This document shows, in pieces, positions 7,812-44,391 of a DNA stretch of 64,000 bases. The stretch comes from Spirochaeta cellobiosiphila DSM 17781. GTDB lineage: Bacteria > Spirochaetota > Spirochaetia > DSM-17781. The stretch spans positions 124,001-188,000 of the forward strand of contig NZ_AUFW01000017.1 in the NCBI RefSeq assembly GCF_000426705.1, read 5' to 3'. The position numbers were made by a program, and so were the translations under genes. Position 1 is the stretch's first letter. Each line of letters opens with the position of its first letter. The notes beneath the pieces are model-generated. The model was given only the letters and a program-made list of their open reading frames with translations. It was not told the DNA's origin and did not search any database.

Positions 7812-7903
7812 ATCTAATAGAGACATACAACATTGTTTGGATTTCACAATATCCGTAAAAACATATAACTCGGGTAATACTTCTTTGTATGTGTTAGAAA
7901 ACA

Positions 7904-7936
7904 ACAAAAAACCCCTTATTTAGTACATAAGGGGTT
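7904..7936 (-). terminator. Intrinsic terminator of the nif operon
   Basis: A perfect 10-bp inverted repeat (AACCCCTTAT at 7910-7919 with ATAAGGGGTT at 7927-7936, 7-base loop). On the minus strand it is followed by a T run, 24 bases past the stop of the ferredoxin gene, the last gene of the nif operon. Confidence 0.9.
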
Positions 7937-10910: not shown

Positions 10911-12248
10911 TTACAGAACCTCCTTTCTTAGATTCCATATAGGACTCATAACGGAAGCATGTACTTCAACGGCAAAGTTGTACATTCCTTTGAATCCTGC
11001 CAGAGCTATCTTACGTTCGTGATTGTGATCAACAAAACCTAATCCCATTTTCATTGCGATGGGACGTTCTTTAACACCTCCAATAAAGAGATCTGCACCT
11101 GTTTCTTTAACAAATTTTGATAATTCGAGAGGATTACTATCATCAACAATTATGGTTCCTGGTTCACATAGGTCCTGAAGCATTTCATAATCTTTTTTAT
11201 TTCCTGTTTGAGATCCAGCTATCACAACGGTCATTCCCAAATGTTTAAGTGCTTTTATTAGACTAAAAGCCTTAAAGGCCCCACCTACATAGATTGCCGC
11301 TTTCTTCCCTTCCAGATCATTTCGAAACGCTGTTAATTGTGGTAACAACTCTGATAATTCATCAGCTACCAACTCTTCTGTTTTTTGACGAATCTCAGGA
11401 TAATCACTAAAATGTTCTGCAACATCATAAAGAGCCTCAGCCATATCTTCGATTCCGAAATAACTGACACGGATATAAGGTATACCGTATTTTTCTTTCA
11501 TTAATTCAGCCAAATAGGTCATAGAACCTGAACACTGTACAACATTCAAAACTGCTCCGTGACTTCGGGCAATTCGTTCAACACGGCCATCACCAGTCAT
11601 TACGGCGACAACCTCTACACCCATTCTTTTGTAGTATTCCTGAATCATCCAGGCTTCACCAGCGAGATTGAACTCACCTAGTATGTTGATACTAACAGGA
11701 GATACATTATCTATATTGCCATGACCAATTAGGCTGAATAGCGCCTCACAAGCCGCTTTGTAACCATCTTTCTTAGTTCCTTTGAATCCTTCTGAATGAA
11801 CAGGTAGAACTGGAATGCCTTTTTCTTGACTTACTTTCTTACATACTGCATTTACGTCATCACCAATAATACCTATGATACAGGTAGAGTAAACAAAAGC
11901 AGCTTTAGGTTCATGTCTATCTATTAACTCGATTAGACTTTCATAAAGCTTTTTTTCCCCTCCATATATAACTTGTTTTTCACGAAGGTCAGTTGAAAAG
12001 CTGTTTCTATGAAGTTCTGGGCCGGAACTTAGGGCACCTCTTATATCCCAAGTGTAAACAGCACAACCAATAGGGCCGTGTACCAAATGAAGGGCATCAG
12101 CAACAGGATAGAGCACAACTCGGCTTCCGCAAAATACACAGGCTCTTTGACTGACAGAACCAGCTTCACTTTTCTTTTCACATGAGATGTTAAAATTATC
12201 CTTACCTTTTACTAATATTTGACCTTGTCTTGCAGCTATATAATCCAT
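10911..12248 (-). CDS. nifE: NifE, FeMo-cofactor maturation scaffold alpha subunit
   Basis: 445 residues, NifD-like but shorter. Cys37, Cys40 and Cys62 (ACVFCGSR and HGPIGCAVYTW) and the VYSTCIIGIIGDDV segment fit the P-cluster-like site of NifE. The FeMo-co ligands used by NifD are not conserved in the same way. It is translated from an AAGGGG site that sits directly beside a small palindrome (12260-12274) and 37 bases from a strong hairpin separating it from nifK. Overlap-free junction with nifN is one base. Confidence 0.95.
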   Translation of the reverse strand: MDYIAARQGQILVKGKDNFNISCEKKSEAGSVSQRACVFCGSRVVLYPVADALHLVHGPIGCAVYTWDIRGALSSGPELHRNSFSTDLREKQVIYGGEKKLYESLIELIDRHEPKAAFVYSTCIIGIIGDDVNAVCKKVSQEKGIPVLPVHSEGFKGTKKDGYKAACEALFSLIGHGNIDNVSPVSINILGEFNLAGEAWMIQEYYKRMGVEVVAVMTGDGRVERIARSHGAVLNVVQCSGSMTYLAELMKEKYGIPYIRVSYFGIEDMAEALYDVAEHFSDYPEIRQKTEELVADELSELLPQLTAFRNDLEGKKAAIYVGGAFKAFSLIKALKHLGMTVVIAGSQTGNKKDYEMLQDLCEPGTIIVDDSNPLELSKFVKETGADLFIGGVKERPIAMKMGLGFVDHNHERKIALAGFKGMYNFAVEVHASVMSPIWNLRKEVL

Positions 12249-12259
12249 ATTACTTCCCC

Positions 12260-12274
12260 TTGTTGAATCAACAA
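12260..12274 (-). repeat. Small palindrome beside the nifE ribosome binding site
   Basis: TTGTTGA-A-TCAACAA is a perfect 7-bp palindrome around one base, immediately upstream of the nifE Shine-Dalgarno (AGGGGAAG). It could be an RNA hairpin modulating nifE translation or a DNA site; only the symmetry is observed. Confidence 0.5.
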
Positions 12275-12284
12275 AAGCTCATAC

Positions 12285-12313
12285 CCGGTGCTGATCCCAG
12301 CCTTCAGCACCGG
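12285..12313 (-). other. Strong intercistronic hairpin between nifK and nifE
   Basis: A perfect 10-bp inverted repeat, CCGGTGCTGA (12285-12294) and TCAGCACCGG (12304-12313), with a 9-base loop, begins 10 bases after the nifK stop. There is no T run after it on the minus strand, so it is unlikely to be a full terminator. A likely role is protecting the 3' end of the nifHDK mRNA or partial attenuation so that nifHDK is expressed above nifEN. Confidence 0.8.
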
Positions 12314-12322
12314 AACTGAGCA

Positions 12323-13705
12323 TTACATTACTAGCTCGAATCGCTCTTCGGGAGCGTCTCGATCCTGTCGGTCATGGAACAGTCCCAATATTTTTTCTAC
12401 AATTCGAAGTCCGCCTTCATAACCTAAGGTTGTGAAATAACTGTGGCCAACTCGATCATATATGGGAAATCCATAGCGAAGGAAAGGTAAGTCCTCATCT
12501 CTTGCTATATATTTTCCATAAGTATTTCCTATCAATAGATCAACACCTTGTTCTTTGATCCACTGGTGTAATAAGAACATGTCTGCTTGTGGCCCGTTTT
12601 TAACTTTTCCATCAATACCATACTGTTCAAATAGCTCTTTGATTCTCTTCTCAAAGTATTTTCCAGGGGTTCCGGATACGACATATACAGGTTCCATATT
12701 TAGGTCTAATAAAAACTCTGTAAGAGGTATTAATTGATCAGGATCACCAAAAATCGCCACTCTCTTACCATGAAGATATTGTTCCTGGTCTGTGATTACG
12801 TCGACTAATCGTCCTCTTTCACTCTTGAAATCAGAAGGAACTTCAACACCAGCAGTCTGGGAAAGCTTCATGATAAATCGATCTGTAGCTTTGATTCCTA
12901 CAGGAATATCTAATACTTCATAATCAACGTTGCATTTTTTGTTTAAAAGCTTAGCAGCTTGTTCGGAAGCAAAGGACCCCATTGCTATTGTGAAGATAGA
13001 ATCACCAGCAGAGACTAACTCTTCTTTTGTTACTCCACCGTCTGGATACATTTGGTGTTTACCTATTAAAGGAGCATCAAGGACATCACTTGTATCAGGG
13101 AATAGTATATTCTCTACGCCCATTCTTTTAGCAATGGATTTGATTTGTCGCATATCACATGGTTCAACCCAACCAGGAATAAGATTAACCTTTCCATTGG
13201 ATTTGCCAGAATTAATAGATAAATACTTTACCATTGCTTCAACCATTGCAGAGAACCCTGTAATGTGGCTTCCAACATAAGAAGGTGTAGGTGCTGATAT
13301 AACAGACTTACCTTCCGGAACTTTACCATCTTCTTGAGCCTTGATTAGAATCTGATTCAAGTCATCACCTATAGTTTCAGATAAACAAGTACTGTGTACG
13401 GCAATGATTTCAGGATCATAAATAGTAAAAATGTTGTTTACAGCCTGTAATAAGTTAGCTTGACCACCAAATACAGAAGCACCTTCTGTAAAGGAAGAAG
13501 TTCCAGCCATAACTGGCTCTTTATAGTGTCTTGTCAATGCTGATCTATGATAAGCGCAGCAACCTTGTGATCCATGACTATGAGGTAAACAACCATGGAT
13601 TCCTAATGCTGCATACATAGCACCAACGGGCTGACAAGTTTTAACAGGGTTGATGGTTAACCCTTCTCTTTCTACCACATCTGCGGTTGTATGACGTAAT
13701 AACAT
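12323..13705 (-). CDS. nifK: NifK, nitrogenase MoFe protein beta subunit
   Basis: 460 residues. P-cluster ligand positions are visible as Cys24 (TCQPVGAMYAALGI), Cys49 (HGSQGCCAYHRS) and Cys107 (VHSTCLSETIGDD), and the HYKEPVMAGTSSFTEGASVFGG stretch is characteristic. The protein is short at the N-terminus compared with the proteobacterial form, as in clostridial and methanogen nitrogenases. It lies 11 bases after nifD with AAGGAG. It pairs with NifD in the alpha2beta2 MoFe protein. Confidence 0.98.
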   Translation of the reverse strand: MLLRHTTADVVEREGLTINPVKTCQPVGAMYAALGIHGCLPHSHGSQGCCAYHRSALTRHYKEPVMAGTSSFTEGASVFGGQANLLQAVNNIFTIYDPEIIAVHSTCLSETIGDDLNQILIKAQEDGKVPEGKSVISAPTPSYVGSHITGFSAMVEAMVKYLSINSGKSNGKVNLIPGWVEPCDMRQIKSIAKRMGVENILFPDTSDVLDAPLIGKHQMYPDGGVTKEELVSAGDSIFTIAMGSFASEQAAKLLNKKCNVDYEVLDIPVGIKATDRFIMKLSQTAGVEVPSDFKSERGRLVDVITDQEQYLHGKRVAIFGDPDQLIPLTEFLLDLNMEPVYVVSGTPGKYFEKRIKELFEQYGIDGKVKNGPQADMFLLHQWIKEQGVDLLIGNTYGKYIARDEDLPFLRYGFPIYDRVGHSYFTTLGYEGGLRIVEKILGLFHDRQDRDAPEERFELVM

Positions 13706-16923: not shown

Positions 16924-16942
16924 TTGCAGGAGCTGTGCCAAA
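16924..16942 (-). promoter_or_regulatory. Sigma-54 promoter of nifH operon
   Basis: On the minus strand TTGGCAC-AGCTC-CTGCAA has the -24 GG and -12 GC exactly 10 bases apart (GG at 16939-16938, GC at 16927-16926). The predicted +1 is near 16914, giving a 36-base leader before nifH. The -24 half is a consensus match; the -12 half has C instead of the first T. Confidence 0.88.
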
Positions 16943-43398: not shown

Positions 43399-43441
43399 AA
43401 TCATTTGACAAAAGAGAAGAGCAAAGGTTACAGTTAGCCAA

Positions 43442-43528
43442 CTCATCAGGGGCGTTTGTTCATTAGAACAGGCTGAGAATTGTCCCTTAGAACCTGATCC
43501 AGGTAATACTGGCGCTAGGAAGCATGAG
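43442..43528 (+). ncRNA. TPP riboswitch aptamer (THI box)
   Basis: Has the conserved core GGGGCG, then GGCTGAGA, then GAACCTGATCCAGGTAATAC and TGGCGCTAGGAAGC. P1 closes by CTCAT (43442-43446) with ATGAG (43524-43528). It controls the seven-gene thiamin operon that begins at 43615. Confidence 0.96.
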
Positions 43529-43582
43529 AAGCGATTACAAATAGATATGGAAACATATTCTATTCCTCTTATATTCAAAGAG

Positions 43583-43614: not shown

Positions 43615-44391
43615 TTGGAAAAACACCCCTACCAGGAATTACATAAAAAAAATCCTCGTGTTTATGTACTAACTAATGATGTAACCAGAAAGTTTATTGC
43701 TGATGCTCTATTAGCAATAGGGGCAAAACCTATAATGGGAATAGCTCCAGAAGAAGCGTTTGAACTTACTTCGTATTCGGATGCTCTATGTTTAAACCTA
43801 GGGACTCCGACTAAGGAAAAATTTAAAAGTTATATAAAAGCTCTCAAATCTGGAATGAAAAATAATATTCCAACAAGTATTGATATCCCCGGAGCCAGTG
43901 CCAGTCATTATAGAAAAGACATAAGTACACAAATCATAAAGCAAATACCTAACTTGACAAACAATCAGGAATGGCCACGAGTTATACACGGCAATCCTTC
44001 AGAAATCATTTCACTATCTGGAAATGAGGTCGTATCACAGATTGATTCAATTCACACAGTCCAAGAGGCCTCACTTCATACGAATAATTTGAAAGATATC
44101 TTCCATTCCATCGTGATAACTGGACCTCAAACATTAATTAAGGGAGACTCAACAACTCTTATCCCCGGAGGGAGTCCCTATATGTCTTATTGTTCCGGTT
44201 TTGGCTGTGTACAAACAGCTCTTATGGCTGCCTTTTTGACACTCCCCATACAAGCAACAGAGGCTTGTATATTAGCTGCACAACTCATGTTTTGTGCAGC
44301 TAAGCAAATAAAAGCCCCCAATGGTCCCAGAGATTTTCAAAATAAATTTATAGATCATTTATTTCAGATTACATATAAGGAGCATCTATGA
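43615..44391 (+). CDS. thiM: Hydroxyethylthiazole kinase
   Basis: 258 residues from TTG 43615 with AGGGAGG 5 bases upstream. The N-terminus VYVLTNDVTRKFIADALLAIGAKPIM and GNPSEI fit ThiM, and the catalytic Cys is kept in CSGFGCVQTAL. Two conserved motifs are altered: the usual DPVGVGAT reads DIPGASAS and GSGC reads GFGC. It phosphorylates the thiazole moiety for thiamin salvage. ATGA overlap couples it to thiD. Confidence 0.88.
   Translation: MEKHPYQELHKKNPRVYVLTNDVTRKFIADALLAIGAKPIMGIAPEEAFELTSYSDALCLNLGTPTKEKFKSYIKALKSGMKNNIPTSIDIPGASASHYRKDISTQIIKQIPNLTNNQEWPRVIHGNPSEIISLSGNEVVSQIDSIHTVQEASLHTNNLKDIFHSIVITGPQTLIKGDSTTLIPGGSPYMSYCSGFGCVQTALMAAFLTLPIQATEACILAAQLMFCAAKQIKAPNGPRDFQNKFIDHLFQITYKEHL

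Follow-up and report, generated by a model that had tools for sequence, protein, structure and literature searches.

In clostridia, internal terminators with an unpaired mid-stem region and few U residues set the stoichiometry of operons, and the stem-loops tested gave 20.7–96.1% termination (PMC9045158, cited here in part). In the ABC importer operons of Ruminiclostridium cellulolyticum, such terminators follow the genes for substrate-binding proteins. The hairpin considered here lies between nifK and nifE of Spirochaeta cellobiosiphila DSM 17781, within an analysed stretch of 64,000 nucleotides (the window, whose positions are used throughout). It resembles the R. cellulolyticum elements in its location, a long intra-operon gap after a gene needed in excess, and in its long GC-rich stem; some of their classes also share the unpaired mid-stem region and the modest U content. 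The folding energies are −38.3 to −10.1 kcal/mol in R. cellulolyticum and −26.9 kcal/mol for the nifK–nifE hairpin. However, termination was measured in R. cellulolyticum, whereas it is predicted here, for another operon in another phylum (PMC9045158).

The stem-loops of the cip-cel operon are likewise strong, and are situated inside the operon at the 3′ end of a gene needed in excess (PMC4423207, in part). In that case the processing sites were mapped and most stem-loops lack a U run, while the nifK–nifE hairpin is known from sequence and has a U-tract. The text of PMC4423207 does not mention the nif operon (no matches for "nif"), and nif is also not mentioned in PMC8219983.

Among nitrogenase systems, the relative amounts of the nif1 transcripts of Anabaena variabilis are controlled at the RNA level with stem-loops, as may be the case here. 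Unlike the hairpin after nifK, the stem-loops described in the cited portion of that report are near the processing sites of nifH1, vnfH1, vnfDG and fdxH1 (PMC4284476). The nifHI1I2DKXEN operon of the archaeon Methanothermococcus thermolithotrophicus has the present gene order except for nifX, and its nifEN genes are less induced than nifHDK: the log2 induction is 7.0–8.8 for nifI1I2HDKX, 5.3 for nifE and 4.6 for nifN. The passages of the report on this operon mention no hairpin (PMC9765008). In Klebsiella, NifHDK accumulate faster than the accessory Nif proteins (PMC8381380, in part). By analogy with these other organisms, the nifHDK products would be needed in excess over the scaffold. Many anaerobes produce the structural subunits and the scaffold from one operon and one promoter, though the subunits are needed in greater amount.

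The nifK–nifE gap and its hairpin

The genome comprises 3.95 Mb in 29 contigs, and the GC content of the window is 35.6%. On the minus strand, the order of the genes is nifH, nifI1, nifI2, nifD, nifK, nifE, nifN, nifB and a 2Fe-2S ferredoxin gene, where nifI1 and nifI2 are two PII-type genes named from their position and their PII matches. The intergenic distances in the operon are −17 to 36 nt, with the exception of the 74 nt between nifK and nifE. The features are as follows.

16926..16940, minus strand: sigma-54 −24/−12 site TGGCACAGCTCCTGC, 62 bases upstream of nifH, matching 9/10 consensus positions
16878-16060, minus strand: nifH, upstream end of the operon
12323..13705, minus strand: nifK, 460 aa, the structural gene preceding the gap; TIGR01286 (NCBIfam), 450.5 bits, cut-off 427.3
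12277..12321, minus strand: complete hairpin, 45 nt, −26.9 kcal/mol, minimum-free-energy fold
12285..12313, minus strand: inner perfect inverted repeat, 10 bp, or 11 pairs counting T-G 12314/12284
12269..12276, minus strand: U-rich tract TTTTGTTG, immediately 3′ of the outer stem, 6/8 T
12258..12276, minus strand: weak second hairpin of −3.9 kcal/mol, TTTTGTTG-att-CAACAAGG, in which CAACAAGG is the partner of the U-tract
12256..12261, minus strand: Shine-Dalgarno (SD)-like AAGGGG of nifE, 7 nt upstream of the ATG, partly paired in the second hairpin
10911..12248, minus strand: nifE, first cofactor-scaffold gene; TIGR01283 (NCBIfam), 621.5 bits, cut-off 505.1
7895..7936, minus strand: operon-end terminator 3′ of the ferredoxin gene, with a hairpin and T run at 7936-7910, the yardstick for the nifK–nifE hairpin, score 23.5

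Both inverted repeats noticed by a first-pass annotation of this DNA are present on the minus strand. The arms of the inner stem, CCGGTGCTGA (12313-12304) and TCAGCACCGG (12294-12285), enclose a loop of 9 nt, and its first base is indeed the tenth after the nifK stop codon (TAA, 12325-12323). The complete hairpin adds an outer 5-bp stem, formed by GCTCA (12321-12317) and TGAGC (12281-12277), which is separated by a 2x2 internal loop from the inner stem of 11 bp. The annotation had described the hairpin as having no T run, which is true of the inner stem alone but not of the complete hairpin, whose outer stem leads into TTTTGTTG. The second palindrome, TTGTTGATTCAACAA (12274-12260), which had been placed directly before the nifE ribosome site, is also there, and its final two bases are the AA of AAGGGG; on its own, however, it is weak.

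The stable GC-rich hairpin ends at 12277, directly at the U-tract on its 3′ side, only by way of the outer stem across the internal loop. With this stem, the terminator score of d'Aubenton Carafa (d) is 27.8 for the hairpin and U-tract, against 23.5 for the operon-end terminator, and the tail score of TTTTGTTG is 4.79 against 5.09. The inner stem by itself scores −17.9, and the case for a terminator therefore rests on the outer 5 bp. A terminator scan of the window that considered uninterrupted stems did not list the nifK–nifE hairpin as terminator-like. Five further hairpins of the same genome were scored, with d = 29.6 to 59.2 in four and 14.9 in the fifth, which follows a flavodoxin gene.

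The site TGGCACAGCTCCTGC before nifH is the only sigma-54 site detected for the operon; none was found in the nifK–nifE gap, and no sigma-70-like site was listed on the minus strand between 11893 and 17205, which covers nifK and the gap. With neither type of site in the gap or in nifK, nifE has no promoter of its own among the patterns scanned and is apparently reached by read-through. The combination of a complete stop after nifK and an unseen nifE promoter was rejected, as no site of the sigma-54 or sigma-70-like types scanned is available for it.

That a perfect GC-rich stem is striking in such AT-rich DNA, as the first-pass annotation remarked, was borne out by several counts. Dinucleotide shuffling of the 74-nt gap, repeated 5000 times, never yielded a Watson-Crick stem of 10 bp. 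The window contains five perfect stems of at least 10 bp, of which the nifK–nifE stem is the sole one with at least six G-C pairs, and 10 shuffled windows contained none of this kind. The fold z-score is −3.56 over 111 nt and −5.1 for the gap. An outer stem together with such a T tract appeared in 0.055% of flank shuffles, and a 5-bp outer stem irrespective of the U-tract in 6.2%.

Together, the window and 20 stretches sampled from the same genome cover 439,559 bases, in which 19 hairpins with an energy of −14 kcal/mol or lower are located between co-directional genes. Twelve of them have fewer than five T in the following eight bases, and the nifK–nifE hairpin ranks seventh by the energy of its inner stem. 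Strong hairpins lacking a long T run are also found between the genes of EF-Ts and ribosome recycling factor (L175, 16283) and between the flavodoxin and DUF2023 genes (L170, 2818). EF-Ts and flavodoxin are expected to be needed in larger amounts than the products of the genes downstream.

nif junctions in other genomes

Of 394 genomes of the same class, 29 (the window's own among them) contain a NifE relative, as do 70 of 241 genomes in the class to which a Desulfobacterales record (G395) belongs and 5 of 395 in the class represented by a Bacteroidetes record. From the G395 class, 61 of the 70 matching genomes were used, with one place taken per genome (G418, G495, G497, G501, G508, G525, G605, G608 and G626 were left out), and the group labelled Des also includes L160 (G397, Syntrophobacterales). 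The nif genes were assigned by rule in 97 loci including the window, with gene starts set by rule from alignments rather than curated. These loci yielded 81 nifK–nifE junctions, since loci without adjacent nifK and nifE give none; seven junctions with a ferredoxin-like gene following nifK were counted separately. Hairpins were sought in the first 100 nt of each gap and terminators were scored in the first 150 nt, for gaps of at least 20 nt. Strong hairpins, defined as those reaching −12 kcal/mol, were compared in gaps of at least 40 nt.

In such gaps, nifK–nifE ranks first among the nif junctions for strong hairpins, which occur in 20 of its 51 gaps and in 20 of the 190 gaps elsewhere (p = 6.7e-6). 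The nifK–nifE gaps are longer than the others, a difference for which the gap cut-off is a partial control. The second-ranking junction, nifD–nifK, has a strong hairpin in 8 of 53 (p = 0.0051 against nifK–nifE). The Fisher tests treat genomes as independent, which is remedied in part by thinning on NifE identity: with one locus per 90% identity group the counts are 19/41 against 19/159 (p = 4.2e-6), and at 80% they are 9/20 against 10/92 (p = 0.00099). Of the 30 loci that have six junctions and a hairpin reaching −8, 17 have their best hairpin at nifK–nifE, this junction making up 33% of the scanned length. Terminator-like hairpins (d > 0) in gaps of at least 20 nt occur at 7 of 61 nifK–nifE junctions against 1 of 249 others, and at 7/54 against 1/226 after the removal of close relatives (p = 4.8e-5). 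For the window's class taken by itself, the difference is not significant at −12 (7/16 against 3/19, p = 0.074), and at −16 the counts are 4/16 against 2/19 (p = 0.25). A strong hairpin is absent from 61 of the 81 nifK–nifE junctions.

The first-pass annotation had proposed a comparison of the hairpin between genomes; at the level of sequence its outcome was negative. No sequence homologue of the hairpin was found among the compared nifK–nifE gaps, none of which aligns with that of the window. The closest NifE proteins are 73–75% identical, and those of the same class at most 72%. What recurs is the position of the hairpin, in sequences that are mostly unrelated. The recurrence at this border was not found in the literature searched, which is no proof of its absence there. 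The device itself is of a known sort, and what may be new is its repeated, mostly non-homologous occurrence at the same nif border.

Several individual gaps deserve description. A sigma-54 site of its own precedes nifE at 3 of the 81 junctions (L068, L070 and L074), all in the window's class; junctions other than nifK–nifE have none, and as a positive control the scan found a site upstream of nifH in 49 of 80. In L068 (G168), a hairpin and nine T follow nifK, and a sigma-54 site, TGGCATGTTTATTGC, precedes nifE by 39 bases; the operon is apparently split there, by a terminator and a new sigma-54 promoter. L069 (G246) and L084 (G061) have two and three tandem strong hairpins, respectively, right after the nifK stop codon, with gap z-scores of −7.5 and −8.7. 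The nifK–nifE gap of L139 shares a near-identical palindromic repeat (26 nt, 92%) with L156, a locus of a different class; the palindrome is probably a widespread dispersed repeat, and some nifK–nifE hairpins elsewhere thus look like dispersed repeats. In L092 (G005) and L093 (G007), nifE appears to be split into two open frames that overlap, as though by a frameshift or an insertion.

Leaky termination and its alternatives

Our first choice is that the nifK–nifE hairpin is a leaky intrinsic terminator within the sigma-54-driven nifH-I1-I2-D-K-E-N-B-fdx operon, which would also cap the nifHDK RNA; we give it about an even chance. It is preferred because the parts of an intrinsic terminator are present, imperfect in two respects, and because no other transcription start that can be scored is available to nifE. 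From these we infer incomplete termination and a stoichiometry resulting from it. As the polymerase leaves nifK, the 45-nt hairpin would fold while the enzyme is positioned over TTTTGTTG, causing some of the complexes to stop. The 3′ end of the stopped nifHDK RNA would be capped by the hairpin of −27 kcal/mol, hindering 3′ exonucleases. Termination would remain incomplete on account of the broken U-tract and the 2x2 internal loop, and the read-through RNA would provide a smaller amount of nifEN-B for cofactor assembly. In this RNA the U-tract is predicted to pair with CAACAAGG, which may slightly reduce access to the nifE ribosome site.

The first-pass annotation had suggested that the hairpin stabilises the nifHDK mRNA or lowers read-through, so that the structural subunits exceed the scaffold. 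This interpretation is supported in part, its direction fitting the position, the strength and the comparative data, and the loss of read-through is likelier than the annotation held, given the U-tract of the complete structure. If the border hairpin sets the ratio, the ratio would be predictable from sequence, testable with a two-gene reporter, and reusable in rebuilt nif operons of other hosts.

On a wider scale, operons of the nifHI1I2DKEN type could generally be controlled at the nifK–nifE border, where different devices (a leaky terminator, a bare 3′ hairpin, or a terminator with a new sigma-54 promoter) that keep the structural subunits above the cofactor scaffold would have arisen repeatedly, each time independently, in unrelated lineages. 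We advance this proposal tentatively, as somewhat short of an even chance. If true, the stoichiometry of nitrogenase would depend on a single RNA junction, recurrent in position but not in sequence. For term-seq data of diazotrophs with this gene order, the comparison points to a specific site to inspect.

The main rival to leaky termination dispenses with termination: RNase Y would cut after the hairpin, the nifHDK piece would be shielded from 3′ exonucleases of the PNPase type, and the nifEN piece would decay. This selective processing and stabilisation predicts the same nifHDK:nifEN ratio, and we regard it as possible, though rather unlikely. The hairpin is a strong intra-operon stem-loop that follows nifK, a gene whose product would be needed in excess, and the genome has genes for RNase Y and PNPase and no match for RNase E/G. 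Precedents are 33 stem-loops of Clostridium cellulolyticum, of which 27 lie at 3′ processing sites and 28 have no U run (PMC4423207, in part), and the nif1 transcripts of A. variabilis, with stem-loops at processing sites and differing half-lives (PMC4284476, in part). Moreover, the majority of the strong nifK–nifE hairpins in other genomes lack a U-tract and so fit stabilisation better. Against this rival, the window's hairpin has a U-tract in register with its complete stem, the feature on which leaky termination draws.

It is improbable, in our estimate, that the hairpin has no role in expression and is an accidental or decaying palindrome, tolerated where there is no coding load. Such an origin would be consistent with the lack of sequence conservation, with the occurrence of about equally strong hairpins elsewhere in 440 kb of the genome, with the short, hairpin-less nifK–nifE gaps of many diazotrophs, and with the probable dispersed repeats among the hairpins of other genomes. 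However, the shuffles of the gap failed to reach the stem, the U-tract and the outer stem are in register, and hairpins of mostly unrelated sequence recur at the same junction. A dispersed palindromic (REP-like) repeat was rejected because the hairpin is unique in its genome.

Control exerted mainly on nifE translation, in which the second hairpin would hide the ribosome site and the first would isolate it from upstream RNA and ribosomes, is very unlikely. CAACAAGG does overlap AAGGGG, and the predicted ensemble shows its first bases paired; yet the last two SD bases are 70–87% unpaired, the energy of the second hairpin is small, and shuffling of the downstream flank gave a comparable stem in 2.0 to 5.8% of cases. 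Least probable of all is a transcription-factor binding site at TTGTTGATTCAACAA, a near-perfect DNA palindrome with one more exact copy and three one-mismatch sites in the genome: all four of these other sites are inside open reading frames, the gap has no promoter of the scanned types, and the operator was rejected.

A known Rfam element was likewise rejected: no family matched the hairpin at its gathering score, and the sub-threshold matches were to eukaryotic families only (E 0.37 and 0.74). Elsewhere in the window, a TPP riboswitch at the gathering score occupies 43438-43539 on the plus strand, and a perfect 12-bp stem lies 0.7 kb beyond it, at 44272-44303.
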